Position numbers and translations under genes: made by a program. The notes beneath the pieces were generated by a model. It saw only the letters and a program-made list of their open reading frames with translations, was not told where the DNA came from and searched no databases. Source: Christiangramia sp. OXR-203 (lineage in GTDB: Bacteria > Bacteroidota > Bacteroidia > Flavobacteriales > Flavobacteriaceae). From it: 64,000 bases of DNA. Every line of letters starts with the position of its first letter. Position 1 is the first letter of the stretch. Location of the stretch: contig NZ_CP139698.1 of the NCBI RefSeq assembly GCF_034372165.1, positions 2,480,001 to 2,544,000 on the forward strand, in the 5' to 3' direction. Below, piece by piece: positions 8,813 to 36,894 of the stretch.

Positions 8813-8825
8813 GCGGAGAAAGAGG
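8813..8825. repeat. Left attachment site core (attL)
   Basis: The sequence GCGGAGAAAGAGG is identical to the 3' end of tRNA-Ser at 24819-24831. It stands alone here, without the rest of a tRNA, as expected of a target-site copy left by site-specific integration. Confidence 0.8.
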
Positions 8826-9182
8826 AACTAACCAAATCTCATTTTAAGCCTATTTTCAACGCTTAAAAGCCTTTTCAAATTTTACTGACACCGAATTAGC
8901 CCCTTTTTAACAAAAAGTTGGGAGTTTTGAGGAAGTTTTTCGGATTGGCACTTCAAATTCGTATAAATGAATTCAAATTATATTTTTAAAAAAAAGCGTT
9001 TATAGTAAACTTATGAGATAATTACCAAAAATCGGTGTTTTTCTCTAAAGTTTACTAAGATTCAATCTTTCCTCTTTCATATGATAAAGCATAAAATTAC
9101 TATTCTTCAAAATAAAGTATTTAGTATTATAATGGTAAATATTGAATAAAAAACATACATTTAACCATTATATTGGTACAAT
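8826..9182. other. Left end of island and leader of the operon
   Basis: No gene. Contains one copy of the 26-bp end repeat (8886-8911), one copy of a 13-mer also found after the operon (8953-8965), and the probable HipB operator close to the first start codon. Strongly A/T-rich. Confidence 0.6.
8886..8911 (+). repeat. 26-bp end repeat, left copy (integrase arm-type site candidate)
   Basis: Begins TGACACCGAATTAGCC and is identical over 26 bases to 24699-24724 in the same orientation. The core TGACACCGAAT recurs twice more next to the integrase gene. Position just inside the attachment core and repetition fit arm-type integrase binding sites. Confidence 0.75.
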
Positions 9183-9184
9183 AT
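9128..9184. promoter_or_regulatory. Probable HipB operator and promoter region
   Basis: TATAATGGT (9128-9136) and its reverse complement ACCATTATA (9164-9172) form an inverted repeat with centres 36 bp apart. Directly after it ATATTG-GTA-CAATAT (9170-9184) is a second small palindrome overlapping the ATG at 9183. HipB-type repressors bind paired palindromes in their own promoters, so this is the expected place for autorepression of the whole operon. Assignment is by position and symmetry. Confidence 0.55.
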
Positions 9185-9446
9185 GCTAAGCGTAACTACA
9201 ATAAAAGATGTGAAACTCAAGATTGGTGAGGCGTGCAAGGCACTTCGTAAATCGAATGGGCTCTCTAGAGACGAACTTGCGGAAGTGCTTGATGTCTCAA
9301 GTACTACCATTCAAAACATCGAGAAGGGTAAAAATGCCACGCTTGATAATGTTTTAAAAGTAGCAAACCATTTTGGATTATTACAATCTATAGCTAAAGA
9401 AATAGATAAAAATATTGTTGATCAAAACGACATTTCACTGTATTAA
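9183..9446 (+). CDS. HipB-like Xre-family helix-turn-helix repressor/antitoxin
   Basis: 87 aa. Residues ~13-70 form a Cro/C1-type HTH: IGEACKALRKSNGLSRDELAE, then VSSTTIQNIEKGKNATLDNV. In HipBA modules this protein binds the operator and holds the HipA kinase inactive. It is first in the operon and followed after 3 bases by the HipA-like gene, the usual antitoxin-first order. Because all downstream genes abut, it may control the complete six-gene unit (inference). The ATG overlaps a small palindrome that could be its own operator. Confidence 0.85.
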   Translation: MLSVTTIKDVKLKIGEACKALRKSNGLSRDELAEVLDVSSTTIQNIEKGKNATLDNVLKVANHFGLLQSIAKEIDKNIVDQNDISLY

Positions 9447-9449
9447 TAG

Positions 9450-10712
9450 ATGGCTAGAGATAAAATTATAGATGTAATTGCTTTTGACCAGGAAATTGGT
9501 AAACTAGGCTATGATATAGACCAGGGTAAATCTTTTTTTCAATACAATCCTGAATTTTTAGAGTCTGGGAAATATTCAAAGTTATTCCCATTTATTTTTA
9601 AACGCACCAAACCAGCACAAGTATTTACTGAATACCAACAAGATACCTTTCAAGGCTTACCGCCAATGATAGCCGATTCCCTACCCGATACTTTTGGTAA
9701 TATCATATTTCAAGAATGGTTAACAGCACGGGGAATAAAAAAAATAAAGCCGCTAGAACAATTGGCTTATGTGGCAGATCGTGGTATGGGAGCGTTGGAA
9801 TATAAACCGATTAAAGAATTACCCAATTCACCAAAAGTAAATATTGATAAAGTAATTAACATCTTAGAAAAGGTGCTCAAACTCAAAGATGAGACCACAG
9901 GAAAAGATCTAAGTGAATTATCCTTACTGAATGTGTTTAAAATAGGAACTTCAGCGGGTGGTGCCAGGCCTAAAATTTTGATCTCAGAACATAGAGAAAC
10001 GGGAGAAATCATTGCTGGTGATAGAGAGACGAGCGAGAGCTACCACCATTATTTAGTAAAGCTACATCTTGATGATAGTGATGGCTATAACAAAGAGAAG
10101 GTAGAATATGCTTATTATCTGCTAGCACAAGAAGCGGGGATCGATATGATGTCCTCTAAACTCATCGAAAACAAACACTTTGCAACCCTACGTTACGACA
10201 GGCAAAATGGAGAAAAACAACATGTGCTAACCGTAACCGGATTAACAGGCTGGGATTTTAAAAGTCAACCAGAGAATTCTTCTTATGAAAACGTATTCAA
10301 AGTAGCCTTAGGGCTAGAAGTGCCTCATAAAGATATACAGCAGCTGTTCAAGCGTATGGTATTCAATCTTGTATTTAGAAATGTAGATGATCATTTAAAG
10401 AATCATAGTTTTATTTATGACAAAGAAAATAATAACTGGAACTTGGCCCCAGCCTATGATCTTACCTATGCACTAAACCCATTAATAACATTTAAGACAA
10501 CTTCTAGAGCTTTATCCATTAACGGAAAACGAACAGAAATTACTTTAAAGGATGTACTAAGCATTGCCGAAGAATTTTCTATTAAGAATCCTAAAGGCAT
10601 TATTGAGGAGATTCAGGCATTGATTCCAAGTTGGATGGAGATCGCTGGTGAATTAGAGATATCTGAGAAAATCAAAGATAGAATAAATAAAGATTTAGAA
10701 ACATTAGTATAA
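9450..10712 (+). CDS. HipA-like Ser/Thr kinase toxin
   Basis: 420 aa, the usual HipA length. An N-terminal HipA domain (~1-110) is followed by the kinase-like C domain. Signatures: GTSAGGARPK (166-175, the family's glycine-rich loop), NVDDHLKNHS with catalytic D314 and metal-binding N318 region (311-320), and PAYDL with D337 as the DFG-like Asp. E. coli HipA phosphorylates glutamyl-tRNA synthetase and halts translation; other HipA proteins have other targets, so the target here is unknown. It starts 3 bases after hipB and ends directly against the helicase ATG (0 bases between). That is unusual for a stand-alone toxin-antitoxin pair and ties it to the downstream genes. Confidence 0.88.
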   Translation: MARDKIIDVIAFDQEIGKLGYDIDQGKSFFQYNPEFLESGKYSKLFPFIFKRTKPAQVFTEYQQDTFQGLPPMIADSLPDTFGNIIFQEWLTARGIKKIKPLEQLAYVADRGMGALEYKPIKELPNSPKVNIDKVINILEKVLKLKDETTGKDLSELSLLNVFKIGTSAGGARPKILISEHRETGEIIAGDRETSESYHHYLVKLHLDDSDGYNKEKVEYAYYLLAQEAGIDMMSSKLIENKHFATLRYDRQNGEKQHVLTVTGLTGWDFKSQPENSSYENVFKVALGLEVPHKDIQQLFKRMVFNLVFRNVDDHLKNHSFIYDKENNNWNLAPAYDLTYALNPLITFKTTSRALSINGKRTEITLKDVLSIAEEFSIKNPKGIIEEIQALIPSWMEIAGELEISEKIKDRINKDLETLV

Positions 10713-13700
10713 ATGGCAACAAAGTTTTTTACGAATAGTGGCGACAATACACTGCTGAATAAATTTGATGGAATTTTTAAGAATACATCTGTACACTATT
10801 TTGATGCATTAGTAGGGTATTTTAGATCATCGGGCTATTTTCAAATAAGGAAATATTTGAAGGATGTAGATCAAATAAGAATTCTCGTAGGCATTGACGT
10901 TGACCATTTGATCAGCGAAGCAGCAAGAAAGGGATTAGAGTTTAATTTTAACACAGAAGTTACTAGGCAAGAGTTTATTAGAGAATTTAAAGAAGATATT
11001 CAACAGGCAGAATATCAAAAAGATGTTGAGGAAGGAATAGTTCAATTCGTTGAGGATGTTACATCTGGTAAAATTCTAATAAAAGCACATCCCGATAAAA
11101 ACATACACGCAAAAATATACATCTTTAAACCGGAAAATTGGAATGAACACAATAGTGGTTCAGTCATTACGGGCTCTAGTAATTTGAGCGTTTCAGGATT
11201 GGATAGAAATTTTGAATTTAATGTTGAGCTACGGGATTATGATGATGTAGTGTTTGCAGGACAGACATTCGAGAACTTATGGAAAGAGGCTATTGATATT
11301 CTGCCTTCTGAAATTGAAACTGTTAAGAAAAAAACCTATTTAAATGATACGTTTACACCTTTTGAGCTATACATTAAATTACTTATCGAATATTTTGGAA
11401 AAAGCATAGAGTATGATCCTGAATCTATAACTGACCTGCCAAAAGGTTATAAAAAATTAGCTTATCAAATGGATGCTGTGAACGATGGCTATGCAAAATT
11501 ATTTAAACACGATGGTTTTATTCTTGCTGATGTCGTCGGTTTGGGAAAAACTATAATTGCTACCATTATCGCAAAAAAATATTATTTCAGTAATGGTTAC
11601 CGAACTAAGATATTGGTGATTCATCCACCAGCACTTGTTAAAGGGTGGACTAAAACTGTAAGAGATTTTGAAGTTCCAGGAGTTGAATTCATTACTAATG
11701 GAAGCTTACATAAAATTAAACATCCCGAAGATTATGATTTGATTATTGTTGATGAAGCACACAAGTTTCGATCAGATGAATCGGAAATGTTTAATCAATT
11801 GCAAAAGCTTTGTAAAACACCAAGAAAACGTAAAGGCAATGATGGTAGTGATAAGAAAAAAGTCATTTTAGTTACAGCAACTCCATTAAATAATAAGCCT
11901 GAAGATATTAGAAACCAGTTGTACCTTTTTCAAGATTCAAAAAAATCTACACTTGAAGTTGGGAATTTGCAGCATTTTTTTAGACCACTTATAGATCAAT
12001 ATAGAAAACTAAAACAAGAGCGAGATCACGATAAAATAGCAAAAGGGGTAAAAAAAATATACAATGAAATCAGAGTAAAAGTATTAGAATCAATTATAGT
12101 TAGAAGAACAAGAACTGATATAAAAAACACACCGGAATATTGGGAAGACATTGTTAATCAAGGTGTCGTTTTTCCGAATATTAATCCGCCCAGACAAATA
12201 CTTTACGAATTAGATAATTATACAGATAATCTTTATGACATTACTTTAAAAACCCTTAAAAAAGAAAGTAAGGATTTAGGTTATTACAGATACCAGGCAA
12301 TTAAATATTTAAGGCCTGAGGCCAAAGAGGCCTATCAAAAAGCTACTGGTGTAAACCCAAGTCAAGCTGATAGAATTTCAGATCAATTAGCTCATATTAT
12401 GCGGATTCTTTTAGTTAAACGAATTGATAGTAGCTTTCACGCATTTAAAATGAGTTTGGGTAGGTATTATGACGCAAATAGAGCAATGCTCAAAATGATT
12501 AAAAATGGAACTATTTATATAGCACCAAAACTTAATGTTAGTGATTTCATTTTGAATGAGAATGAAGCTGAACTTGAAGAAATTTTAAGGAATGCTGAAG
12601 ACACTGAAACTATAAATGCATATCCTATAGAGGATTTTTATGAAGAATTTATTCAAGGTATAAAACATGATCATCTGACGTTAACTAAATTGAAAGTTAA
12701 GTGGGATGAAGTGACAGAAGATCCAAAGTATAACACATTTGTAAAAAGGATTAATAATGAATTAATGGATTCGGTTATTAACGATAATAAAAAATTACTG
12801 GTTTTTTCCGAATCAAAAGAAACAACAAACTATCTTTTTGAAAGGCTGAAAAAAGATGGGTTTAACAATGTCTTATGTGTTGATAGTTCTAACTCAAAAG
12901 AATTGACTGAAATAATATCTCAGAACTTTGACGCGAACGAACCTATTTCGGAACAAAAAGATGATTATGATATAATCTTAACTACTGAAGTCTTAGCAGA
13001 AGGAGTTAACCTTCACCGCTCTAATATCATTTTAAATTATGATATTCCTTGGAATGCAACGAGGCTAATGCAACGAATAGGACGTGTAAATAGAATAGGA
13101 ACAGAATCAACTAATATATATATCTACAATTTCTTTCCGACTTCAAGAACCGATAATGAAATAGAGTTAAATAAAAAGGCTTACATAAAGTTACAAGCTT
13201 TCCATTCTGCACTAGGAGAAGACAGTCAAATTTACTCAACAAGAGAAGAATTTGATTCTTTTGGTTTATTTGAAAAAGTTCCTGAAGAAGAAAAAGATGA
13301 ACGCTTAGAGTTTCTTAATTATTTAAGGAAATTTAGAACAGAAAATCCAGATTTGTATCAAAAAATTAAGAAAACTATTCCTAAGAGGGCTAGAACTGGA
13401 CGACACAATAAAAGTTCCAAAAATCAAACTATTACTTTTATCAAGAATAAAAAAAGAGATGTATTTTATCTTATTTATCCAAATCTTCAATTTAAAGAAT
13501 TAACTTTTGTTGAAACAGCCCGAATATTTAAAGCACAATTATCTGAAAGACCAATTCCAATACACGGTTTACATCATGAGCAGATTCAAATAGCACTTAA
13601 TTCTTTTCAAAACGAGGAAAATCTGACAAATTTGGGAGATTTAGGTGCTGTAAAATTAGGTCCTAATGATAAAAGAGCTATAGCATTTATCACAAAACAA

Positions 13701-13988
13701 GCCTTACAGGAATTTGTTTCTAAAGAAGATAAAGAACTCATAGAATTAACAAAACTGGCTATTAAAAGAGGCAAATTCCAAAAATTACCTCGTGAAATTA
13801 ATAAGCTTTTAAAAAGTATTAAGGACAGTGGTTTAACGCGTTCTGAAGTTTTTGAAAATCTCATTGAAATTCTTAAATCATATCCCCTAGATGATGTCTC
13901 AAAGGAAATACCAGAAATTAAGAAAAGTAAAACACGTCAGGCAGTTTCGACACCGAACATAATTTTATCCGAATCATTTTCAATATAA
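10713..13988 (+). CDS. Superfamily 2 helicase with N-terminal phospholipase D-like nuclease domain
   Basis: 1091 aa. Residues ~1-200 form a PLD-like domain with a single HxK motif (IHAKIYIF, H132/K134) followed by TGSSNLSVSGL and NFEFNVEL. Such half-domains usually dimerise to make one phosphodiesterase site. Residues ~240-870 form an SNF2-like SF2 helicase: Walker A ADVVGLGKT (272-280), DEAH (347-350), motif III VTATPLN (387-393), motif V TTEVLAEGVNLH (757-768), motif VI QRIGRVNRIG (787-796). The C-terminal ~200 residues are unassigned. Expected to translocate on or remodel double-stranded DNA and possibly cut it. It ends 2 bases before the methyltransferase gene. Fused PLD-helicases are familiar from defence loci, but I cannot place this one in a named system. 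Confidence 0.88.
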   Translation: MATKFFTNSGDNTLLNKFDGIFKNTSVHYFDALVGYFRSSGYFQIRKYLKDVDQIRILVGIDVDHLISEAARKGLEFNFNTEVTRQEFIREFKEDIQQAEYQKDVEEGIVQFVEDVTSGKILIKAHPDKNIHAKIYIFKPENWNEHNSGSVITGSSNLSVSGLDRNFEFNVELRDYDDVVFAGQTFENLWKEAIDILPSEIETVKKKTYLNDTFTPFELYIKLLIEYFGKSIEYDPESITDLPKGYKKLAYQMDAVNDGYAKLFKHDGFILADVVGLGKTIIATIIAKKYYFSNGYRTKILVIHPPALVKGWTKTVRDFEVPGVEFITNGSLHKIKHPEDYDLIIVDEAHKFRSDESEMFNQLQKLCKTPRKRKGNDGSDKKKVILVTATPLNNKPEDIRNQLYLFQDSKKSTLEVGNLQHFFRPLIDQYRKLKQERDHDKIAKGVKKIYNEIRVKVLESIIVRRTRTDIKNTPEYWEDIVNQGVVFPNINPPRQILYELDNYTDNLYDITLKTLKKESKDLGYYRYQAIKYLRPEAKEAYQKATGVNPSQADRISDQLAHIMRILLVKRIDSSFHAFKMSLGRYYDANRAMLKMIKNGTIYIAPKLNVSDFILNENEAELEEILRNAEDTETINAYPIEDFYEEFIQGIKHDHLTLTKLKVKWDEVTEDPKYNTFVKRINNELMDSVINDNKKLLVFSESKETTNYLFERLKKDGFNNVLCVDSSNSKELTEIISQNFDANEPISEQKDDYDIILTTEVLAEGVNLHRSNIILNYDIPWNATRLMQRIGRVNRIGTESTNIYIYNFFPTSRTDNEIELNKKAYIKLQAFHSALGEDSQIYSTREEFDSFGLFEKVPEEEKDERLEFLNYLRKFRTENPDLYQKIKKTIPKRARTGRHNKSSKNQTITFIKNKKRDVFYLIYPNLQFKELTFVETARIFKAQLSERPIPIHGLHHEQIQIALNSFQNEENLTNLGDLGAVKLGPNDKRAIAFITKQALQEFVSKEDKELIELTKLAIKRGKFQKLPREINKLLKSIKDSGLTRSEVFENLIEILKSYPLDDVSKEIPEIKKSKTRQAVSTPNIILSESFSI

Positions 13989-13990
13989 AT

Positions 13991-16900
13991 ATGGAAACAA
14001 ACCAATTACAAAACATATTCCAGAGTATTTTCAACTACGATGATTGGAAAGAGGTTATAAAAAGCCATTTTAAAAATGTAGATTTTTACCTAACACCAGA
14101 AAACAGAAAAGAAGAAAAAAATACTCATAGACTAGCAAAAACCATTATAGAATTTGGTTCTGCTCAATTGGCCGATAATAAAATCTTAAAATTTTATGAC
14201 GTCGAGCTTGAAGAGAATAAAGACGTTGCAAAAAACAGAGTTGGTCTGCGTAACCTCATTCATAATGACGTAATTCCTGGGGATGTGGATGCAATATTGG
14301 TAGTTTTTCATACAAAAGGAGATAGTGAATGGCGATTGACATTTATATCTAAAGCTATTTTTTGGGATGATGATTTTAATGAAAATAAATTAGAAACTAG
14401 CCCAAGACGATACACCTATGTTTTAGGTGAAGATGAAAGCGTAAAAACAGCTGTAAAACAGTTTCAGAAATTACAAAATGAGCAAGTAACTATTAAACAT
14501 TTAATAGAACTTTTTAATGTAGAAAAATTAAATAAAAAGTTTTTTGATGGTTATGTAAAACATTATAAAAAATTCTGGCTTTATCTGTTAGATGATAAAT
14601 ACAGAAAATTATTCCCTAGTATAGATAAAGAGAAGCAAGAAAAATCCATTCGCGATTTTACCAAGAAACTATTAGGGCGAATAGTATTTCTTCATTTTTT
14701 ACAAAAAAAAGGCTGGATGGGTTGTGATCCACACCCAACTGAATGGGAAAATGGCGAAAAACAGTTTCTATTGAAACTGCTCGATGGTTTTAGAGATAAA
14801 GAACACTTCCATTCCAATTGTTTAACCTATTTATTTTTTAATACTCTAAACGCAAAAAGAGAGAATAATATTTTTAAAATTGATGGTCTAGGCAACGATC
14901 TTAACAACAGTAAAGTTCCATATTTGAATGGTGGTTTGTTTGAGACGGATAAAGAGGTAAATGCAAAAAGTATAGATTTCCCATTTTCTTATTTTCAAGA
15001 TTTATTTGAATTCTTTGGGCAATACAATTTTACAATTGATGAAAACAGTCCAGAAGATCACGAGGTTGGTATTGATCCTGAGATGTTAGGACATATTTTT
15101 GAGAATTTACTTGAAGAGAATAAAGAAAAAGGTGCATTCTACACACCTAAAGAGATTGTGCAGTATATGACTCAAGAGAGTTTAATACAATACTTACAGA
15201 CGCATCTGGGTGAACATCATGAAATTCAAGAATTTATTAGAAATGATAATAAAGGAGATGAAACCGCCAAAGAAAATTTTATTAGGGATAATGCTAAAAA
15301 AATAGAAGAACTTTTAGATAATGTGAAAATTTGTGATCCTGCGATAGGGTCTGGCGCATTCCCTATGGGTATGTTACAAGAAATATTTAAAGCTAAAATG
15401 GCTTTAGACTGGACACTTGATCGTTCTGAAGTGAAAAAGAGTATTATCCAAAATTCAATCTACGGTGTTGATTTAGAATCTGGAGCAGTAGATATTGCGC
15501 GTCTTCGGTTTTGGTTAGCCTTAGTTGTGGATGAAAACATACCCCAAGCCCTACCAAATCTAGATTATAAAATAATGCAGGGAAATAGCTTACTGGAAAG
15601 CTTTGAAGGTATTGACTTGAGCGAGATACACGAAGGCATAGCTATTGAGGTTGATGAGGAAAATTCAAAAGCCAATTTGTTCAGTCAGGAGCTTAAAAAG
15701 AAGGCAAATGTTGAAAATCAGGAAAAATTAGAGGATTTAATACATACCTATTTTGATTTAGATGATCCGGATGAAAAAAAAGAACTACATAATAAAATTG
15801 ATAAGCAAGTTCTTAATAACATCTATTTCACACTGTATGATTATAGCTCATCCTTAGTAAAAGATGTAAAGAAGTTAAAAAAGAAAATAAAAAATAAATC
15901 TTCATCATTAACCCAAGCTACTCAGAAAATTAAATATGAAAACGAAAGCAAGGATGCCAAAAACTTAAAAAAGCTTAATAGTAAACTAGAAGAAATTGCT
16001 AGTAAACAACAGAACTTAAAAGAACTTTATAATTCTAACGACCGTCCATTTTTTTTATGGCATTTAATGTTTAAAGAAGTATTCGACGAAGGAGGGTTCG
16101 ATATCGTAATTGGAAATCCGCCATATGTGGACTCAGAAACAATGGTTAGAAATGACAAGGAATTGAGAAATCTTATCAAAAATAATTTTGATACAGCTAC
16201 AGGAAACTGGGATTTATTTATTCCATTTGTAGAACTTGGTTTTCAAATTGCTAAAAAAGCTTCCCAGTTTTGCTTCATAATACCTAATAAAATTATCAGT
16301 GCAAAATACACTACAGCATTACGCCATTACTTATCTACAAAAGAAATTATAGAAATTAGAGATTACTCTTCAATTAACGTTTTCAAAGAGGCTAGTGTAT
16401 ATCCTATTACTTTACTGGTAAATAATTGTATACCAAATCATACCGTAAAAATGTCAAAAATGGAAACATTAGTAAATGAAGCTTATTTCAATACAGTTCC
16501 AGAAAATAAATTTTACTTGGACATTTCTTGGTCAAAATATTTTTTTAAACCCAATATAGTTAATCTTATAAATAGAATTGAAGCAAATACGAGTTTATCA
16601 GATTATTCCTCGAAAATATCGATCCTTGGTGCTGCGACGGTGTCTGAAGCATATCTTATTAAAGAGATTGTTGAGGATGGAGAGTCCAATGAAAACAATT
16701 TAAAATTGATAAATACTGGAACAATAGACCCATTTGTTTCATTGTGGGGAGTAAAGGATACTCAGTACATAAAAGGTAGATATGAAAACCCTATTGTGCC
16801 CAACGAAAAATTAATTGAAATAAATTCAACTCGATTTCAACAATCAAAGCAAAGCAAATTGATTGTAGCTGGAATGGCTAAAACTTTTGAAACTTTTTAT

Positions 16901-17458
16901 GATGCTGAGGGTGAATATTTAGCTGGAAAATCTACCACCATCATATTAGAGGATGAGGAAAATCTAAAATTTTTACTCGGATTATTAAACAGCAAGGTCT
17001 TGACCTTCTATTTAAACTATGTATATCATTCTTTAAAAATGGCTGGTGGCTATCTAAATATAGGAAATGAAATCTTGCGAAACTGTCCAGTAATATTGAG
17101 TGATGATAAATTTTTAAACATAATAGTAGACTATATAATTTTTTCAAAAAAACTTCAATTGGGCAAAGAAAAGGATTCAAATAAATTTGAGGTTATTTCT
17201 CTGGCTTTTGAAGAAGTCTTAGATGCAATAGTTTTAGAAATGTATTTCCCTGAAGAGTTTAATGAGGCTAAAATCAGAATACTTCAAAATTCAAAAGAAA
17301 TTTTCAAAAATTTTGATAGTTCCGATGAAAATGAAAAATTTGAAGTAGTTCTTCAAGCATATCAAGAATTATCAGAAAAGAAAAATCCCTTGCGTAATCA
17401 AATTAAGCTTATGAAGATTGAGTTAAAACAACTATTAAACCCAATTTTAAGCGTTTAA
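13991..17458 (+). CDS. Eco57I/TaqI-type adenine DNA methyltransferase (type IIG-like)
   Basis: 1155 aa. N-terminal ~1-170 region unassigned, with a VELEENK...NRVGLRNL segment (71-89) that could be a degenerate or divergent nuclease core; no clear PD-(D/E)XK triad. A helical spacer follows. The methyltransferase has GAFYTP (381-386), SAM motif I CDPAIGSGAF (448-457), YGVDLESGAVDIARLRFWL (491-509), and N6-adenine motif IV NPPY (709-712). A Lys-rich coiled segment lies at ~615-680. Near ~970-1045 is a TaqI-like C-terminal specificity region (LLNSKVLTFYL...). No separate HsdS is present, so recognition is probably built in. It may mark self DNA, or act as a modification-dependent switch as PglX does in BREX; choosing needs data. 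Confidence 0.85.
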   Translation: METNQLQNIFQSIFNYDDWKEVIKSHFKNVDFYLTPENRKEEKNTHRLAKTIIEFGSAQLADNKILKFYDVELEENKDVAKNRVGLRNLIHNDVIPGDVDAILVVFHTKGDSEWRLTFISKAIFWDDDFNENKLETSPRRYTYVLGEDESVKTAVKQFQKLQNEQVTIKHLIELFNVEKLNKKFFDGYVKHYKKFWLYLLDDKYRKLFPSIDKEKQEKSIRDFTKKLLGRIVFLHFLQKKGWMGCDPHPTEWENGEKQFLLKLLDGFRDKEHFHSNCLTYLFFNTLNAKRENNIFKIDGLGNDLNNSKVPYLNGGLFETDKEVNAKSIDFPFSYFQDLFEFFGQYNFTIDENSPEDHEVGIDPEMLGHIFENLLEENKEKGAFYTPKEIVQYMTQESLIQYLQTHLGEHHEIQEFIRNDNKGDETAKENFIRDNAKKIEELLDNVKICDPAIGSGAFPMGMLQEIFKAKMALDWTLDRSEVKKSIIQNSIYGVDLESGAVDIARLRFWLALVVDENIPQALPNLDYKIMQGNSLLESFEGIDLSEIHEGIAIEVDEENSKANLFSQELKKKANVENQEKLEDLIHTYFDLDDPDEKKELHNKIDKQVLNNIYFTLYDYSSSLVKDVKKLKKKIKNKSSSLTQATQKIKYENESKDAKNLKKLNSKLEEIASKQQNLKELYNSNDRPFFLWHLMFKEVFDEGGFDIVIGNPPYVDSETMVRNDKELRNLIKNNFDTATGNWDLFIPFVELGFQIAKKASQFCFIIPNKIISAKYTTALRHYLSTKEIIEIRDYSSINVFKEASVYPITLLVNNCIPNHTVKMSKMETLVNEAYFNTVPENKFYLDISWSKYFFKPNIVNLINRIEANTSLSDYSSKISILGAATVSEAYLIKEIVEDGESNENNLKLINTGTIDPFVSLWGVKDTQYIKGRYENPIVPNEKLIEINSTRFQQSKQSKLIVAGMAKTFETFYDAEGEYLAGKSTTIILEDEENLKFLLGLLNSKVLTFYLNYVYHSLKMAGGYLNIGNEILRNCPVILSDDKFLNIIVDYIIFSKKLQLGKEKDSNKFEVISLAFEEVLDAIVLEMYFPEEFNEAKIRILQNSKEIFKNFDSSDENEKFEVVLQAYQELSEKKNPLRNQIKLMKIELKQLLNPILSV

Positions 17459-17461
17459 ATT

Positions 17462-19408
17462 ATGCAAAGAATACAATCCATCACCCTGCGTAATTTCAAG
17501 TTCTTTTATGGCTTAGAAACTGAGCAGAAACAAAATAAAATTGATCTCAATCAAAATAACCTATTACTATATGGGGAAAATGGTAGTGGGAAAAGCTCTA
17601 TTTATTGGGCTCTCTACACATTTCTGCAATCTTGTTTGAAAACAGATGTGCAAATAAAGAAATACTTTGATCCTACGGATTCGCAGAACTTAAGAAACCG
17701 TTTTTCAAGTGATACTGATGATTCTGCTATTATTCTAGAAATAGTTGATGAAAATGGAGCTAGAACAAAAGAAATTTCTAATAGAAAGTTAGAAACTAAT
17801 AAAACTACAGATACTACTGTGGATAAAATAATTGCAGGAAGTGATTTCATCAATTATAAATTCCTGTCAAAACTTTATGATTTTAGAAATAGTGAAGAGA
17901 TAGATTTATTTGATTGGCTGGAAAGGGAAGTTTTAATGTTTGTTGATTTTGAAGAATCATATACAGATAATCAAGGAAACTTATCGACTAGCACATTAGC
18001 AAGTGACTGGTGGAGTTTTATTTGCGAAGCACCAAATTCATTAACTCCTAACAAAAAAAACAAGAACACGGCAAAGCGTGATTCACCAGAATATCTTGCG
18101 TTAGTCAATACTACATTGCCTAAATTTATTGAGCTATTAAAGACCTTTTTGACAAAGATAACTATAAAGACTAATCAATATTTGAAAGAAGATTTTGATG
18201 AATCTTTTAAGGTTGATTTTGGTATTTCTTCCATAAAATCTAATTATAACAATTGGATAGGTAAGGGCAATATATCTAGGCCAATTATTCCTTTAAAAGT
18301 AACTTTCGATCACGATAGCTTAGAATCATATAAAAAAGAAATAGGAAAACCACATACCTTTTTAAATGAAGCGAGATTAACTGCTATCGCATTAGCTATA
18401 AGGTTGGCAATGTTAGAAGAGAGGTTGTACGACGAAAATTCAGCCAGTTTATTAGTTTTGGATGACCTCTTGTTAAGTTTAGATATGAGTCATCGGGATA
18501 AAGTTTTAGATATTATACTAAAAAAAGTCGATGAATATCAAATATTCATTCTGACGCACGATCGCGCATTTTATAGCTTGTGTAAGCGAAGAATAGAAAA
18601 TAATGCCAGAATTGATGACACATTTAAATGGGATTTTAAAGAAATGTATCAAGATACAACAGATAAAGGTATTCCTTGTCCGTTTATCCCCGAGAAAAAA
18701 AGCTATATAGACCTAGCAAAAAAATATTTAAAAGAGTTTGATTACCCTGCTTCAGCTAATTATATAAGAAAGGAAAGTGAAAGAGTTCTGAAATATATTT
18801 TACCAGAGAGTAGGACGGTTAAAATAAAAGAAAGTGATGATGATGAAGGGAGTGTCACTTTAAACTTAGATGGATTAATAAATAATTTCACAAAATACTT
18901 TAGGGATTTGGGTGGTGATTTGAGTCCGTTTCAAAAATTTAAAGAGCATAAGGATCTATTAATGAACCCATTATCTCACGATAATATAAGTTCACCAATT
19001 TATAAACAAGAAATTTTAAGTGCTATTAAAATTATAGAGAGTCTCAACAGCTTAGAATTAAAACTGTACGAGTCTGATTTAGTTAATACGAATACTTTTA
19101 TTTTAAGCGAAATTGATTCTGAAGGTAAAAATTGGGCATATACATTTTACCTAAAAGACAATTTACGATTAATCAAAGATTTGAACGGAACCTGGTTAAT
19201 TAATAACCCACATTGCCAATTTATATCAAGGCAAAACACTACAGACGCTTTGCCTTTAGAAACATTTCCATCGCCTCATAATGCCAAATTAAATGCTGGA
19301 TATACAACGATAAGACACGTACTAGGAATTAGAATTGGAGAAGCAGATAATAAAAAGAATATTATAGATATAATTACTAAAGATGGCGAGCCTTTAACTA
19401 CTAATTAG
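17462..19408 (+). CDS. SMC/RecF-like AAA (ABC-type) ATPase
   Basis: 648 aa. N-terminal ITLRNFKFF followed by Walker A GENGSGKSS (38-46). A ~250-residue insertion without obvious long coiled coil separates it from the signature FLNEARLT (300-307), Walker B LLVLDDLL (330-337), D-loop SLDMSHR and H-loop H366 (ILTHDRAFY). The C-terminal ~270 residues are helical, with a MNPLSHDN segment of unknown role. This is the compact overcoming-lysogeny/RloC/PtuA-like type of ATPase common in phage defence, which senses or organises DNA and gates an effector. No nuclease motif is evident in the protein itself, so the partner effector may be the next gene (inference). Spacing is 3 bases upstream and 0 downstream. 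Confidence 0.82.
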   Translation: MQRIQSITLRNFKFFYGLETEQKQNKIDLNQNNLLLYGENGSGKSSIYWALYTFLQSCLKTDVQIKKYFDPTDSQNLRNRFSSDTDDSAIILEIVDENGARTKEISNRKLETNKTTDTTVDKIIAGSDFINYKFLSKLYDFRNSEEIDLFDWLEREVLMFVDFEESYTDNQGNLSTSTLASDWWSFICEAPNSLTPNKKNKNTAKRDSPEYLALVNTTLPKFIELLKTFLTKITIKTNQYLKEDFDESFKVDFGISSIKSNYNNWIGKGNISRPIIPLKVTFDHDSLESYKKEIGKPHTFLNEARLTAIALAIRLAMLEERLYDENSASLLVLDDLLLSLDMSHRDKVLDIILKKVDEYQIFILTHDRAFYSLCKRRIENNARIDDTFKWDFKEMYQDTTDKGIPCPFIPEKKSYIDLAKKYLKEFDYPASANYIRKESERVLKYILPESRTVKIKESDDDEGSVTLNLDGLINNFTKYFRDLGGDLSPFQKFKEHKDLLMNPLSHDNISSPIYKQEILSAIKIIESLNSLELKLYESDLVNTNTFILSEIDSEGKNWAYTFYLKDNLRLIKDLNGTWLINNPHCQFISRQNTTDALPLETFPSPHNAKLNAGYTTIRHVLGIRIGEADNKKNIIDIITKDGEPLTTN

Positions 19409-21409
19409 ATGTTTATGAAAAAACATACCTCAAAAATAACAGCAAAAAGTATTGAACAAAGTGGTCTTTCAGAAGGGTATAAAGCAATCGCAGAGTATAT
19501 ATGGAATGGGTTTGATGAGGGTGCTTCTTATGTTAATATTAATTACGAAGGCAATGAAGTAGGTTATCTACAAGAACTCTCAATAGAGGATAATGGAACG
19601 GGCATAGACTTCTCTGATTTAGAAAACACCTTTGGAAAATTTCAAGATTCCCAAAAAGCCAAGACCTTTGCAAAAACAGGTTTTGTAAAAGGTAAAAAAG
19701 GTAAGGGACGCTTCGCTTTCACAACATTCGCACATACTGCAACCTGGGATACAGTTTTTGAAAAAGAGGGCAAACATTTGCAGTATCAAATTAAAATCAA
19801 TAAATCAAATAGTCAAGATTACGAAACTTCAGATGACCGCAAAATAGTATCGATCAAATGTGGTACAAGAGTAGTTATTAAGAACATATTTGACTTATAT
19901 GGTGATCAATTAGATAATGATGCATTTTATGAGTTTTTGGCTAGCGAGTTTGGATGGTTTCTTCTACTAAATAAAGATAAGGATTACCATATCAACTTAA
20001 ATGGGGAACGTTTGGACTATTCGATAGTTATTGATGACAAAGATATCACCGACACTACAATCATTGATGATAATTTCAAGATTAGCTTTGTAAGATGGTC
20101 TAAAAAAATTGGTGACAAATACTATTTCTATTTCTTGGACAAGGAAAGGGTAGAAAGATATCGATTGCATACTTCTTTTAACAACGGTGCAATAGATTTC
20201 CATCATTCTGTTTTCGTAGAATCAAAGTACTTTGACGATTTCAAGCCAACAAAGGAGGACAGTTCAACATTTGATAAGAATCAACAAGACGGTACCTTTA
20301 AAGCATTGGTTCAACATCTAAAAGAAGTTGTAGCTAAAAAGGAAAAGGATTTTATTAGACATAATAAGGCCGAAAAATTAATTGAGAGATATCGTCAAAA
20401 GAAAATATTTCCATCTTTTAAAAATAATGCATACGACCAAGTAAGAGAAAAGGATTTGGAGAATGTAGTTAAAGAATTATATTGTGCAGAGCCATCGATT
20501 TTTAAAAATTTGAAAACCACCCAAAGTAAGACACTTGTTGGGTTTTTAAATCTGCTTTTGGACAGTGAAGAACGAGATAAAATTTTAACTATTATTGATG
20601 GTATAGTAAACCTTTCAGATGAGGAGCGCAACGAGCTCGCGAAAGTCTTACAAAAAACAAAGTTTACATATATCTTAAATTTAATTCGTTTACTGGAAAG
20701 TCGACATACGGCTGTTGAAACGCTCAGGATTCTTATTTACGATCTAAATAAATTCACGAATGAAAGAGACCATATCCAAAAAGTAATTGAAAATAATTAT
20801 TGGCTATTTGGTGAAAAGTATCATTTAGTTTCAGCAGACCAGAATTTTGAAGCAACCCTTAGCAACTATCTAAAATTCTTAGAAGAGAACGACAACAAAA
20901 AACCAAAAATAGGTGACTTAAACCAAGACGAAAAATTAAGACGTCCCGACTTACTTATATGTCGTAAGTCAGATAAGCCTGATCATCGCACGGAAGATGG
21001 GCTTATAGAAGAAAATATTGTTGTTGAATTAAAGAGACCGAGTGTAGAAATTGGTAAAGTACAATATCGCCAAATAGAGGATTATATGAATTTCATAATT
21101 TCTGAAGACCAATTTAATAGCCAGCTAAGAGAATGGAAATTTATCATCGTAGGAACAACCGTTGATGATTACATAACTGGTCTATACAAAAGCCAAGAAG
21201 TCAAAGGCAAAAGATTTTTAGTACACGCTATTGATAGATGTGAGATTTATGCAATGACTTGGGATGATTTATTTAAACAGTATCGCAACAGGCATAAGAA
21301 CCTCGTTGACCAATTAGAGTTTAAAAATTCCATTAAAGAGGAACTGAAAGCAAAAGACATAAATTTTGACAAGGAACTTTCAAATAAATTGACTAAAAAA
21401 ATAGCTTGA
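19409..21409 (+). CDS. GHKL ATPase fused to PD-(D/E)XK (Shedu/DUF4263-like) nuclease
   Basis: 666 aa. Residues ~1-240 form a GHKL (HSP90/MutL/MORC-like) ATPase: N-box YKAIAEYIWNGFDEGA (E29, N33, D36), G1 EDNGTGI (60-66), glycine-rich lid GKKGKGRF (95-102). The middle ~290-450 is helical. Residues ~455-640 look like a Shedu/DUF4263-type nuclease: IENNYWLFGEKYHLV, then RRPDLLI (D514) and VVELKRP (E540, K542), the D-x(n)-E-x-K pattern. The product should therefore couple an ATP-driven dimer clamp to DNA cutting, like MutL in outline but with a different nuclease. It is the last gene of the operon, in 0-base contact with the ATPase gene. An alternative start at codon 3 (MKKHT) is possible. Confidence 0.8.
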   Translation: MFMKKHTSKITAKSIEQSGLSEGYKAIAEYIWNGFDEGASYVNINYEGNEVGYLQELSIEDNGTGIDFSDLENTFGKFQDSQKAKTFAKTGFVKGKKGKGRFAFTTFAHTATWDTVFEKEGKHLQYQIKINKSNSQDYETSDDRKIVSIKCGTRVVIKNIFDLYGDQLDNDAFYEFLASEFGWFLLLNKDKDYHINLNGERLDYSIVIDDKDITDTTIIDDNFKISFVRWSKKIGDKYYFYFLDKERVERYRLHTSFNNGAIDFHHSVFVESKYFDDFKPTKEDSSTFDKNQQDGTFKALVQHLKEVVAKKEKDFIRHNKAEKLIERYRQKKIFPSFKNNAYDQVREKDLENVVKELYCAEPSIFKNLKTTQSKTLVGFLNLLLDSEERDKILTIIDGIVNLSDEERNELAKVLQKTKFTYILNLIRLLESRHTAVETLRILIYDLNKFTNERDHIQKVIENNYWLFGEKYHLVSADQNFEATLSNYLKFLEENDNKKPKIGDLNQDEKLRRPDLLICRKSDKPDHRTEDGLIEENIVVELKRPSVEIGKVQYRQIEDYMNFIISEDQFNSQLREWKFIIVGTTVDDYITGLYKSQEVKGKRFLVHAIDRCEIYAMTWDDLFKQYRNRHKNLVDQLEFKNSIKEELKAKDINFDKELSNKLTKKIA

Positions 21410-21441: not shown

Positions 21442-21470
21442 TGAGCCGAATAGCATTTCTATTCGGCTCA
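21442..21470 (+). terminator. Hairpin at the end of the cargo operon
   Basis: A perfect 12-bp stem: TGAGCCGAATAG at 21442-21453 and its complement at 21459-21470, with a 5-base loop, 32 bp after the last cargo stop. The T-tract is missing (TAACATC follows), so it may act as an mRNA-stabilising or Rho-assisted terminator. Confidence 0.65.
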
Positions 21471-22276: not shown

Positions 22277-22681
22277 ATGGACGAGGGATATGAAAATGAA
22301 ACATTTGAGAAGCTGGGAATTAAAACTTCTGTAGCCAAAAGATTTAGAAAGTTTTGTAAAAAAATGAGTAAATCACAATCGATGACTTTACTCTTGATGA
22401 TCGACTTTTTTGAGGAAAATGCAATCTCCCCGGCAGAGTCCATGGGACCACGAATGGAAACCCTGGAGAAAAGAATATCACTACTTATCAAAAAACGTAT
22501 GAATGGAATGATCGCCATCATGAAGGATATTGAAAAATCTCAAACTAAACCAACAGCCGCAATGTTATATGCTCTTTTTGAGCATGTTGAACCACCTAAA
22601 AAGAAATCACTGATTTTAGAGAAAACAAAGTTTGAAGAAAAGGAAGAAGTGAAATTTAAAGAAAAAATTGAAAATGATTAA
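22277..22681 (+). CDS. BfmA/BtgA family mobilization protein
   Basis: 134 aa. The segment KTSVAKRFRKFCKKMSKSQS resembles a ribbon-helix-helix/basic DNA-binding start. It is followed by MTLLLMIDFFEENAISPAES and a basic, helical part with a KPTAAMLYALFEHV motif. This matches my memory of BfmA/BtgA proteins of Bacteroidetes mobilizable elements, which help a relaxase act at oriT. No relaxase gene accompanies it in the island, so transfer, if it still occurs, would need one supplied in trans. The start at 22277 is the first in-frame Met and lies ~100 bp from the candidate oriT. The C-terminus is charged and low in complexity. Confidence 0.75.
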   Translation: MDEGYENETFEKLGIKTSVAKRFRKFCKKMSKSQSMTLLLMIDFFEENAISPAESMGPRMETLEKRISLLIKKRMNGMIAIMKDIEKSQTKPTAAMLYALFEHVEPPKKKSLILEKTKFEEKEEVKFKEKIEND

Positions 22682-23368: not shown

Positions 23369-24580
23369 TTACTTAAATTTTGATCTTAATATGGCCATAT
23401 CCTTGCTCACTTTCATATCTAAGATTTTGGCATAATGCTGCGTAGTTTTAAGGTTAGTATGACCAAGCATTTTACTTACTGATTCAATTGGCACCCCGTT
23501 GGTTAAAGTTACTGTTGTTGCGAAAGTATGTCGTGCTAAATGAAACGTGAGATTCTTTGTGATGCCTGCCAATGTTGCAATCTCTTTAATGTAGGCATTC
23601 ATTTTTTGATTACTTAATACAGGTAAGACCAAATCTTTTTCTTTCAACAGCTCGTTGTCTTTATACTTCTCGATAATAACCTTAGCAATTGGTAAAATTG
23701 GAATATTACTTCTAGTATCTGTTTTAGATCGTTTTGTTTTAACCCATTCCTCACCGTCTGCACCAACGCTAATATCACCTCTATTCAGTTTTTTGACATC
23801 AGCATACGCCAGACCCGTAAAACAGCAAAAAATAAAAATATCGCGCACTTGATCAAGACGTTCCATTTTCAATTCGAGAGTTATAATTTTTTGGATTTCT
23901 TCTTCGGTCAAAAACTCTCGCTCAACGATTTTCAATTTTCCTTTCCAGTGCAGAAATGGATCTTTATCAATCCAATTATTAGCATGAGCAATACGGATGA
24001 TCTTTTTAAAATTAGTAATATACTTTATGGCAGAGTTGTGCGCGCACTTGCGAGTCGTTTTAAGATAGTATTCAAAGCCTGTGATGAACTTATGATCTAC
24101 ATCCTGTACAGGAATATCATTTTTCTTATATTTCTTCTTTATAAAGCCTGCTACGTGTTTTTTGCAAGTGCGATAGCGCTCAGCGGTTCCTGCGGCAAAG
24201 TCTTTCCCAATAAGACTATCAACTTCGTCGTTATGCTCCTGGAAGATTTCTAAAAGCATCTTTTTTGTTTTGTCCTTACCTAAATATGCCTCGCGAAGTT
24301 GAATAGCGGAGTAGGCTATTCCATCTCTTTGAAATTTTTGTTCTATGGTGTAGATTTTGTTTTTAATCAATTCAATTTCCCTATTTATTTCCTGATTCTC
24401 TGGTAAGTTACCCAATGCTTTTTGTGATCTACTATTCCATAAATCAATATGTACTTTTCGATTAATACTGCACTCAGCCCGCTTACCCTCTAAGGTTATG
24501 CGGAGATAAATATTAGTAAGACCCTGAAGATTGGCCTTACTTTTTTTGACATAAAATAATATTGAGAGTTGAACTGACAC
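23369..24580 (-). CDS. Tyrosine recombinase / site-specific integrase
   Basis: 403 aa. The N-terminal arm-binding/SAM-like domain of Bacteroidetes integrases (YVKKSKANLQGLTNIYLRIT) is followed by a core-binding domain (~115-210) and a catalytic domain. Catalytic residues: HLARHTFAT (H and R), GHTNLKTTQHYAKI with the final nucleophile Y383. The first Arg position is FTGLAYAD, the variant usual for Bacteroidetes conjugative-element recombinases. The start is GTG at 24580; the only upstream codons before a stop give no ATG. It lies at the tRNA end of the island and should catalyse integration into and excision from tRNA-Ser. Its start codon lies inside one of the repeated putative arm sites, which suggests autorepression. 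No excisionase gene was recognised. Confidence 0.93.
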   Translation of the reverse strand: MSVQLSILFYVKKSKANLQGLTNIYLRITLEGKRAECSINRKVHIDLWNSRSQKALGNLPENQEINREIELIKNKIYTIEQKFQRDGIAYSAIQLREAYLGKDKTKKMLLEIFQEHNDEVDSLIGKDFAAGTAERYRTCKKHVAGFIKKKYKKNDIPVQDVDHKFITGFEYYLKTTRKCAHNSAIKYITNFKKIIRIAHANNWIDKDPFLHWKGKLKIVEREFLTEEEIQKIITLELKMERLDQVRDIFIFCCFTGLAYADVKKLNRGDISVGADGEEWVKTKRSKTDTRSNIPILPIAKVIIEKYKDNELLKEKDLVLPVLSNQKMNAYIKEIATLAGITKNLTFHLARHTFATTVTLTNGVPIESVSKMLGHTNLKTTQHYAKILDMKVSKDMAILRSKFK

Positions 24581-24682
24581 CGAATGAATTTAAAATTTAC
24601 TTCAATGTAGTAAAAAATAATTAAATCAATATCATTTTTAATAACTGAATATCAAACGTTTAACCTCTATTCGGTGTCAGTT
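24572..24682. repeat. 14-bp inverted repeat around the integrase promoter
   Basis: AACTGACACCGAAT (24572-24585) and its exact complement ATTCGGTGTCAGTT (24669-24682), separated by 83 A/T-rich bases. The left copy overlaps the integrase GTG start. Both contain the TGACACCGAAT core of the 26-bp end repeats, making four copies in all at the element ends. Confidence 0.8.
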
Positions 24683-24698
24683 GTATATAGTTTTTAAG

Positions 24699-24724
24699 TG
24701 ACACCGAATTAGCCCCTTTTTAAC
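24699..24724 (+). repeat. 26-bp end repeat, right copy
   Basis: Identical over 26 bases and in the same orientation as 8886-8911. It lies 94 bp inside the right attachment core, compared with 60 bp for the left copy. Confidence 0.8.
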
Positions 24725-24818: not shown

Positions 24819-24831
24819 GCGGAGAAAGAGG
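24819..24831. repeat. Right attachment site core (attR) in the tRNA 3' end
   Basis: GCGGAGAAAGAGG, identical to 8813-8825. It covers the last 12 bases of tRNA-Ser plus one flanking base, so the tRNA stays intact after integration. Confidence 0.8.
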
Positions 24832-24904
24832 GATTCGAACCCCCGGAGGTGTGACCCTCAACAGTTTTCAAGACTGCCGCATTCGACCACTCTGCCATTT
24901 CTCC
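24820..24904 (-). tRNA. tRNA-Ser (anticodon UGA)
   Basis: 85-nt class II tRNA on the minus strand. Acceptor arms GGAGAAA (5' end at 24904) and TTTCTCC pair over 7 bp, with discriminator G. The anticodon loop CTTGAAA places TGA at 24868-24870. A long variable arm (GTTGAGGGTCACACCTC) marks it as Ser, and the T-arm has GGTTCGAATCC. CCA is not encoded. It is the integration target of the island on its 3' side. Confidence 0.95.
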
Positions 24905-35993: not shown

Positions 35994-36894
35994 GACACTT
36001 ATCAATATTGTGGGTCCTACTGCTATTGGGAAAACTGCACTCTCGATCAAAATTGCGAACCTTTTCAAAACTGAAGTCTTATCAGCAGATTCACGGCAAT
36101 TCTATAAAGAAATGTCGATTGGAACGGCAGTGCCCGAACCGGAAGAACTCGCAGCAGCTCAGCATCATTTTATTCAGCACAGATCAATTACTGAAGATTA
36201 CAATGTTGGAGATTTTGAAAGGGAAGCACATACAAAACTAGATGAACTTTTCGAAAAACATGATGTGGTGGTAATGGTAGGCGGCAGCGGATTGTACACC
36301 AAAGCTGTGGTGGAAGGTCTCGATCATTTCCCAGAAATAGATAGCAATATTCGTATAAAACTGAATGAAGAATTGTCAAAACACGGTCTGCAATCACTTC
36401 AGCAAAAGCTACAGAAGATGGATCCGGAATATTATGCAGTAGCCGATATTCAAAATCCACATCGCCTTATTCGTGCTCTAGAAATTTGCATAGGCACCGG
36501 TAAAGCTTTTTCATCTTTTCTAAAGAAGAAAAAGAACGCCAGAAATTTTGAGACAATTTCTATTGGTTTAACTGCCGAAAGAGAAGAAATATATGACCGT
36601 ATCAACCAAAGGGTGGACCTTATGATCGAAAATGGTTTAGTAGACGAGGCCAGACAAATATATCCTTCCAGAAAATACAATGCATTGAACACGGTTGGCT
36701 ACAAAGAGATGTTCGCATACTTTGATGATCAATGGGATTTGGAAACTGCCGTTGGTGAGATCAAAAAAAATACGCGAAGGTTTGCAAAAAGACAATTAAC
36801 CTGGTTTAGAAAAGATGAAACTATTACCTGGTTTGATCGGACTACAATTTTCGAATTGATTGCCACACACCTGCGGGAAAAGATCAATTCTTAA
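35986..36894 (+). CDS. miaA: tRNA dimethylallyltransferase
   Basis: 302 aa. Transfers a dimethylallyl group to A37 of tRNAs reading UNN codons. P-loop GPTAIGKTAL (10-19), conserved SADSRQFYKEMSIGTA with the catalytic Asp, VGGSGLYTKAVVEG, and the C-terminal QLTWFRKDETITWFD. No unusual features. It is the last gene of the plus-strand run and its stop overlaps the 3' end of the opposing HYR protein gene by 11 bases. Confidence 0.95.
   Translation: MTKTLINIVGPTAIGKTALSIKIANLFKTEVLSADSRQFYKEMSIGTAVPEPEELAAAQHHFIQHRSITEDYNVGDFEREAHTKLDELFEKHDVVVMVGGSGLYTKAVVEGLDHFPEIDSNIRIKLNEELSKHGLQSLQQKLQKMDPEYYAVADIQNPHRLIRALEICIGTGKAFSSFLKKKKNARNFETISIGLTAEREEIYDRINQRVDLMIENGLVDEARQIYPSRKYNALNTVGYKEMFAYFDDQWDLETAVGEIKKNTRRFAKRQLTWFRKDETITWFDRTTIFELIATHLREKINS

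Follow-up and report, generated by a model that had tools for sequence, protein, structure and literature searches.

Do six genes that follow one another almost without a gap make up a single defence system, or are they parts of different standing that share an operon? The question is raised by positions 9183-21409 of a 64,000-nucleotide stretch of the Christiangramia sp. OXR-203 genome (contig NZ_CP139698.1, 2,480,001 to 2,544,000; here called the window), inside a 16.0-kb integrative element at a tRNA-Ser gene. An earlier note, made from the letters of the window, had listed six consecutive plus strand open reading frames (ORFs) there with gaps of 3, 0, 2, 3 and 0 bases, which proved exact, and had proposed that they form an undescribed six-gene defence system. 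They encode a HipB regulator, a HipA kinase, an HKD nuclease-helicase fusion, a DNA methyltransferase, an ABC ATPase and a GHKL protein with a predicted nuclease (Table 1). By gene content this is indeed a defence-type operon, and the observation stands; the six genes do not recur together. With moderate confidence, we read the operon as a restriction-modification-like core, comprising helicase and methyltransferase and in a subset of loci the ATPase, with two accessory layers, HipBA and the paraMORC3-like GHKL protein.

A recurrent helicase-methyltransferase core

Helicase homologues (E ≤ 1e-70) were found in 35 of 394 other genomes of the phylum (36 of 395 including its own) and in 6 of the 296 genomes of the order sample. 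We compared 41 helicase loci outside the window's genome, 38 of them genomic, one per genome, and three from a plasmid collection. A methyltransferase of the core family lies at most three genes downstream of the helicase in 34 of the 37 informative loci, the count leaving out four loci that end less than 1.5 kb from the helicase. Plasmids of archaea, cyanobacteria, Thermus and Lactococcus carry the pair as well; 460 plasmid records had a helicase match, of which seven were inspected, along with four reached through methyltransferase or ATPase matches.

Pfam (E ≤ 0.01; nine island proteins scanned, the six of the operon and three encoded by further island genes) bears out the domains that the earlier note had seen in all six proteins, save that the nuclease part of the GHKL protein is recognised by eye. 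The active sites of the core are conserved. Among proteins of at least 900 amino acids, window included, helicase residues H132, K134, N157 and E168, the Walker A residues G276, G278 and K279 and the motif VI residues Q787, R788, G790 and R791 are invariant in all 40 sequences, and D449, P450, G453, G455 and NPPY (709-712) of the methyltransferase are kept in 32 of 32. The invariant HKD site of the helicase is more likely to be the restriction nuclease, in preference to the GHKL nuclease as main cutter. The possibility that the methyltransferase is a Type IIG restriction enzyme complete in one protein was set aside, no PD-(D/E)XK motif being seen by eye in its N-terminal part; a search for a solved structural relative of it found none.

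The core of Prevotella nigrescens and that of Lactococcus cremoris are accompanied by opposite-strand partial methyltransferase or recognition genes, with an Mpi invertase after the methyltransferase, which suggests that methyltransferase specificity is phase-variable in such relatives. Inverted recognition genes with Mpi-type invertases are what a sequence-specific modification enzyme would lead one to expect. Resolvase or invertase genes lie near the core relatives L018, L060, L066, L068 and L087 (one gene cluster) and L096; those of L018 and L096 are the ones annotated Mpi and found beside opposite-strand partial genes. One further locus (L055:557-3523) carries a diverged second HKD-helicase gene of 26% identity, the second gene past the ATPase.

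The best PADLOC match of the window's helicase is the model C3a139 'HKD+Snf2' (7.8e-45). A distant relative in a viral-collection contig, L098, matches that model over nearly its full length (3e-136), so PADLOC already has a model for this helicase family. Such a distant helicase is present in two ATPase-led viral-collection loci, L098 and L100; a helicase scan of the viral contigs with patterns from close relatives only found no relative. Carriage by phage was considered and rejected, the phage collection giving no ATPase match.

The ATPase belongs to the core in a subset of loci. Its homologues were found in 12 of 394 other phylum genomes (13 of 395 including its own) and in 5 of 296 genomes of the order sample; searches that started from the ATPase gave 14 non-self hits, 12 from the phylum and two further ones from the order search. 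A methyltransferase gene stands upstream in 12 of the 14, once with a 101-amino-acid ORF between. Nine of the 12 ATPase genomes also have the helicase, where about one would be expected (Fisher p = 2e-8). Among the nine helicase loci with a long ATPase ORF, five have methyltransferase and ATPase ORFs that overlap by 1-4 bases. The two genes are also adjacent in three of the four viral-collection contigs found (L097, L098 and L100); L097 and L100 look like the same sequence twice, and L099 ends before the ATPase. On a quick tree, which has two long rows and carries a long-branch warning, presence or absence of the ATPase switches five times or more, so the gene has apparently been gained or lost repeatedly. 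Broken or fragmentary ATPase genes were seen in L112 and, in each case directly after the methyltransferase, in L074, L075 and L111, as if readily lost. In another restriction context, at L113 (5006-9881), a GmrSD_N-domain gene precedes an ATPase homologue and a MukB_N-type gene lies upstream.

GENGSGKS, NEA, DD and LD of the ATPase do not vary across the 10 rows aligned, nor do R436, E440, N502 and H506 in its C-terminal part; that C-terminal part received no separate family name from Pfam, NCBIfam or the best 25 of its 34 PADLOC matches. Matches of sequence and of fold (Foldseek) are to RecF, Rad50, SMC heads and retron PtuA, with low template modelling (TM) scores. The protein had been called SMC-like. 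It is too short for an SMC protein in the strict sense, its matches being to Rad50, SMC and RecF ABC heads, and a short ABC ATPase of the Rad50/RecF/PtuA type is the better label.

Proposed accessory layers: HipBA and the GHKL protein

Homologues of hipA, hipB and the GHKL gene (blastp, E ≤ 1e-4) were found in none of the 41 other helicase loci. Co-occurrence of the last four genes, which the earlier note had suggested looking for with and without hipBA, therefore holds for helicase and methyltransferase and for the ATPase in a subset; neither the GHKL gene nor hipBA takes part in it. For the same reason we do not adopt a single six-gene system as our main reading. In such a system every gene would encode a required subunit and HipA would halt the cell if the rest fails. 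The short gaps (0-3 bases) along the whole operon speak for it, as does the protection against phage given by a HipA-family kinase (HipAD/DS-6, PMC13092281). We nonetheless think it quite unlikely, since besides the count of 0 in 41 the GHKL relatives of 46-70% identity have no core-type gene in the stretches examined, and base composition differs between the modules. The G+C content is 35.6% in hipB and 35.5% in hipA, 31.0% in the helicase, 30.5% in the methyltransferase and 30.8% in the ATPase gene, and 32.7% in the GHKL gene (window, 37.3%). These steps coincide with the module borders drawn from the comparison of loci, in agreement with a core and separate accessory layers.

Other helicase loci have other companions. 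Gene clusters near the core include a YhcG/DUF1016 nuclease (six genes in five loci), a Schlafen AlbA_2 protein (five loci) and a resolvase/invertase (five loci), each cluster being named after one Pfam-scanned member; KAP NTPase, RecD-like and UvrD-type helicases, a second methyltransferase and TIR were also seen. Small helix-turn-helix (HTH) genes head some of the other helicase operons, so a leading regulator is not unique to the window's copy.

At the front of the window's operon, hipB and hipA have the arrangement of a HipBA type II toxin-antitoxin pair, an HTH antitoxin immediately upstream of a two-domain HipA kinase, and differ from it in continuing gaplessly into a restriction operon. 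NCBIfam matches of the pair are under the cut-offs. HipA matched 778 plasmid records, the best at about 36%, as befits a generic family.

The GHKL protein has a HATPase_c_3 domain (65.2 bits, cut-off 25) and, by eye, a C-terminal nuclease with E-D-ExK in six of six full-length rows of our alignment (A1), the motif being absent from two truncated rows; Pfam left this nuclease part unmatched, and its fold comes out weakly in the structural model. Two relatives, L007 and L008 (10001-11236), stop at 411 amino acids and lack the C-terminal nuclease part, and in L007 a SIR2-like gene follows. Foldseek against the PDB gave MLH1, MutL, Hsp90/TRAP1 and MORC, with TM-scores of 0.21-0.27 by query length, matches that may reflect an S5 domain after the GHKL domain. 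The protein fits the published description of paraMORC3, from which we take the label: a GHKL domain followed by an S5 domain and, at the C-terminus, a nuclease of the restriction fold that bears E-D-ExK, in proteins common among Bacteroidetes and proteobacteria and found with restriction-modification genes or standing alone (PMC2292703).

Its relatives of 46-70% identity come from Polaribacter (the best), Tenacibaculum, Marinifilum, Flavobacterium, Mucilaginibacter, Pararcticibacter and Gracilibacteria, and none has a helicase, methyltransferase or ATPase of the core kind within about 10 kb on either side (except for L009, where the stretch differs). We compared 14 genome loci of the GHKL gene, seven of close relatives and seven further ones, the neighbours being scanned in part. 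A restriction gene lies at most two genes away in six of the 14. In a Gracilibacteria metagenome-assembled genome the GHKL gene is built into a Type I restriction-modification operon, HsdM-GHKL-HsdS-ParA-HsdR, with gaps of 5-23 bases (L006:8540-16777). Other orders are GHKL-HsdR-RhuM-HsdM (L115) and HsdR-GHKL (L117); a 292-amino-acid HSDR_N protein is encoded 245 bp upstream (L116), a Type ISP enzyme is convergent at 6 bp in a member of the window's genus (L120), and an Eco57I methyltransferase is the opposite-strand neighbour (L119). In a seventh locus (L114) AbiEii comes first and overlaps the GHKL gene. On the plasmid loci L121-L123 no annotated restriction gene adjoins it; L121 has a DNA methyltransferase gene at a distance of three genes. 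A recurrent core, accessories found in none of the 41 loci, and a GHKL gene that elsewhere occurs singly or next to different restriction genes together lead to the reading of a core with accessory layers.

The integrative element and a proposed division of labour

The tRNA island claimed by the earlier note is confirmed by the tRNA-Ser(tga) gene, the 13-bp repeats at 8813 and 24819 and the tyrosine integrase. The tRNA gene lies 3.4 kb beyond the end of the operon and is adjoined by the integrase gene and a BfmA/BtgA gene. Just inside both island ends is a 32-bp repeat, 94% identical (8880-8911 and 24693-24724). The two copies have TGACACCGAAT in common, and similar words, direct and inverted, occur near 24575-24680; these repeats are probably integrase arm sites, as plausibly are the similar words nearby. 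In another genome of the genus (G019; loci L124 and L125), where the proteins flanking the tRNA-Ser gene are 86 and 88% identical to the window's, the same tRNA gene and the same 13-mer enclose an unrelated element of about 20.3 kb, whose integrase is 25% identical to the window's and whose cargo includes the Type I restriction-modification genes HsdR, HsdM and HsdS and a PDDEXK_4 nuclease. The site thus accepts varied restriction cargo.

This raises the alternative of a defence-island assemblage, in which the genes are co-transcribed, co-mobilised and jointly advantageous with no mechanistic coupling, paraMORC3 and HipBA being independent systems. The unrelated island of G019 and the varying companions of the core listed above are in its favour. 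We regard it as unlikely: starts that fall 0-3 bases past the preceding stops throughout are unusual for mere neighbours, and the GHKL gene is found repeatedly near restriction genes.

Table 1. Features of the operon and of its integrative element (window coordinates)
Feature	Position	Strand	Evidence
13-bp left attachment repeat, matching the tRNA-Ser 3' end	8813..8825		exact 13-mer repeat
hipB, XRE-family antitoxin/regulator, 87 aa (amino acids)	9183..9446	+	HTH_3 1.2e-12; TIGR03070 couple_hipB 46.7 bits, below cut-off 71.65
hipA, HipA-family kinase toxin, 420 aa	9450..10712	+	HipA_C 3.9e-44; Couple_hipA 8.4e-12
HKD (PLD) nuclease-SWI2/SNF2 helicase fusion, 1091 aa, core	10713..13988	+	PLDc_2/RE_NgoFVII, SNF2 and Helicase_C (Pfam)
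Eco57I/Type IIG-like N6-adenine methyltransferase with TaqI-like target-recognition domain, 1155 aa, core	13991..17458	+	Eco57I, MmeI_Mtase and TaqI_C (Pfam)
Short RecF/Rad50/PtuA-like ABC ATPase, 648 aa, joins the core as third gene in some loci	17462..19408	+	SMC_N 4.7e-12
GHKL ATPase with predicted C-terminal PD-(D/E)XK-type nuclease, resembling paraMORC3, 666 aa, accessory	19409..21409	+	HATPase_c_3 8.3e-18
12-bp palindromic hairpin, candidate terminator 3' of the operon	21442..21470		scored on - strand
BfmA/BtgA-family mobilisation protein	22277..22681	+	NF041200 105.3 bits (cut-off 24)
Tyrosine integrase of the island	23369..24580	-	Phage_integrase, Phage_int_SAM_5, Arm-DNA-bind_5
tRNA-Ser(tga), integration target; 3' end is the right attachment repeat (24819-24831)	24819..24904	-	ARAGORN, Rfam RF00005, repeat

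Five terminator-like sites were observed in the region against 5.5 expected, so the hairpin after the operon is weak evidence of a terminator. The promoter scan gave 69 sites against 61.2 expected (standard deviation 7.3), not clearly in excess, and the Rfam scan matched the tRNA alone. Outside the island, the window encodes a 1663-amino-acid surface protein (36884-41875) in which HYR, cadherin-like and Por secretion-tail domains are recognised.

Several observations weigh against the division into core and accessory layers. With hardly a gap between them, the six genes may by now work as one unit. In 6 of the 41 loci less than 3 kb of DNA is available upstream of the helicase, so hipBA could escape detection there, and helicase-bearing genomes show a weak excess of the GHKL gene (3 of 6, p = 0.01; on other contigs), by which some functional link between the two is possible. 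Three helicase loci have no recognised methyltransferase downstream (L083, L087 and L089), and one of the seven inspected helicase plasmids (L093) showed no related one. The ATPase is absent from 19 of the 30 loci in which the gene following the methyltransferase can be seen and is therefore not obligatory; the remainder have nine long ATPase ORFs, one of which (L072) is interrupted by a stop within the match, and two fragments (L074 and L075), assigned by hand from gene clusters. Of the hits that started from the ATPase, L112 is a fragment with no methyltransferase, and L113 (1 of 14) sits with GmrSD_N and MukB-like genes instead. Mean model confidence (pLDDT) is 58.6 for the ATPase and 62.4 for the GHKL protein, and the fold matches of both are low in TM-score. 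A candidate HipB operator, the inverted repeat 9128-9139/9161-9172, was rejected after being matched in 30 of 300 simulated sequences.

If the operon is nevertheless a core with two accessory layers, family knowledge of ATP-dependent restriction systems supplies a mechanism for the core, and the logic of marking self and scanning and cutting the rest, put forward in the earlier note, fits that knowledge. The Eco57I/Type IIG-like methyltransferase, with its own TaqI-like recognition domain, would methylate host sites at adenine (m6A), and the HKD-SNF2 helicase, as restriction subunit, would move on and cut unmarked DNA, which may protect against phage or plasmids. The short ABC ATPase, partner of the methyltransferase in a subset of loci, is probably an ATP-gated DNA clamp or licensing subunit. 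It would fill the place that DUF499/BrxC or CxC-ABC ATPases have in related systems, as a 'third solution'. HipBA, seen in the window's copy only, may serve as an addiction or growth-arrest module: HipB is likely to be the repressor of the operon, and HipA would arrest growth when HipB runs short. The paraMORC3-like protein, also seen only in the window's copy, could be a clamp-type second effector that cuts DNA; DNA looping has been proposed by Iyer et al. (PMC2292703).

The comparison separates a conserved part, helicase and methyltransferase with the ABC ATPase in a subset, from an interchangeable part, the toxin-antitoxin pair and the paraMORC nuclease. It defines a three-gene unit in which to ask why an additional ATPase is taken up again and again by ATP-dependent restriction systems. 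It also provides a paraMORC3-like protein in an operon context, which makes genetically accessible a role predicted from gene neighbourhoods in 2008.

Comparison with known systems

PADLOC and NCBIfam assign no complete system, in keeping with the earlier note's failure to match the set to a named one. PADLOC placed no protein of the six in a named complete system and gave no match for the GHKL protein; the methyltransferase matches Type IIG models, and the ATPase weakly matches mad3 and PtuA. NCBIfam gave for the GHKL protein mutl alone (17.8 bits, cut-off 180) and for the helicase phospholipD_antiphage (136.8 bits, cut-off 1100) and DISARM_DrmD (149.9 bits, cut-off 610). Class 1 DISARM, which we take to comprise DrmA, DrmB and the PLD protein DrmC beside DrmD/DrmMI, shares a SNF2-like helicase and an adenine methyltransferase with DrmD/DrmMI similarity, a likeness in hidden Markov model scores only. 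It differs in that DrmD is far under the NCBIfam cut-offs and that the sole DrmA match (1.4e-17) is the helicase protein itself; DrmB and DrmC are not among the best 25 matches per protein. Identity with DISARM, and with Hma, Type-2 BREX-related (BR) and Pbe systems, was rejected on profile matches and a motif check, defining genes of each being absent from the matches listed or, for Pbe, the defining motif from the ATPase.

Hma consists of HmaA, HmaB (described as an m5C methyltransferase) and HmaC (PMC8565338). The operon has a partial HmaA match (1.5e-30), and HmaB and HmaC are absent from the best 25 of 37 and of 34 matches. The authors of the work on BR systems, whose Type-2 form is centred on DUF499, merge PADLOC's Hma into them (PMC12839542). 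Type-2 BR resembles the present core in having an HKD-SWI2/SNF2 fusion, an N6-methyltransferase and an ATPase as third core protein (PMC12839542), whereas the ATPase here is a short RecF/Rad50/PtuA-like ABC ATPase instead of a DUF499 AAA+ protein; no DUF499 or standalone DUF3780 was found among the nine island proteins. The CxC-ABC/PbeABCD systems have a similar helicase-nuclease and methylase with another ATPase (PMC10853773). PbeC is matched weakly by the window's ATPase (6.9e-7, PADLOC), which has no C-x-C in its 648 residues; DndE, the Pbe cognate, is not among the matches listed for the nine proteins, and no gene lies between the six ORFs.

Might the core, then, act like BREX or Pbe, by exclusion or by suicide DNA damage after an invader is sensed, with the methyltransferase marking self? 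The architecture is common to BR and CxC-ABC/Pbe, for which suicide action has been discussed (PMC12839542, PMC10853773), and the methyltransferase matches the NCBIfam BREX PglX model, under its cut-off. We hold this to be very improbable, as the HKD residues, the same in all 40 sequences, and the swappable recognition genes of some relatives' methyltransferases point to cutting of unmarked DNA, and as PglZ, BrxC, DUF499 and DndE are all missing from the matches listed for the nine island proteins. The absence of the BREX markers PglZ and BrxC had been remarked on in the earlier note.

The GHKL protein shares with paraMORC3 the GHKL domain and an occurrence either linked to restriction-modification genes or standalone, and the E-D-ExK pattern seen by eye may be a further common trait. 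The MORC operons described in the available part of that study include HKD domains fused to Rad25-like helicases and separate SWI2/SNF2 operons, and the window's operon was not met there (PMC2292703). For the core we tentatively propose a subtype, which we judge possible, in which the short RecF/Rad50/PtuA-like ABC ATPase, with its own conserved C-terminal module, replaces the DUF499, BrxC or CxC ATPase as an often translationally coupled partner of the methyltransferase, and plug-in effectors (paraMORC3 clamp-nuclease, HipBA, YhcG nuclease, Schlafen-like protein, KAP NTPase, TIR) are exchanged around it, paraMORC3 and HipBA being wired into the same transcript here. The literature searched, in the parts available, gave no account of this ABC-ATPase variant, and an earlier one may exist in Krishnan 2020, which treats ABC ATPases.

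The earlier note's word 'undescribed' must be narrowed in that related larger architectures have been described, the GHKL protein fits paraMORC3 (PMC2292703) and the parts are of known kinds. The helicase-methyltransferase pair is already in print (PMC6098607). On the Lactococcus plasmid pLd8, orf33 and orf34 encode a PLDc_2, SNF2 and Helicase_C protein beside an N6-methyltransferase that has a pfam12950 recognition domain and no nuclease domain; the ABC ATPase, HipBA and the GHKL protein are not described in the available part of that paper (PMC6098607). Likened by description, the two loci have in common a PLD-SNF2 helicase and a type IIG-like N6-methyltransferase, and the pLd8 authors regard their pair as a restriction-modification system that resembles class I DISARM, with the PLD domain as its likely nuclease (PMC6098607).

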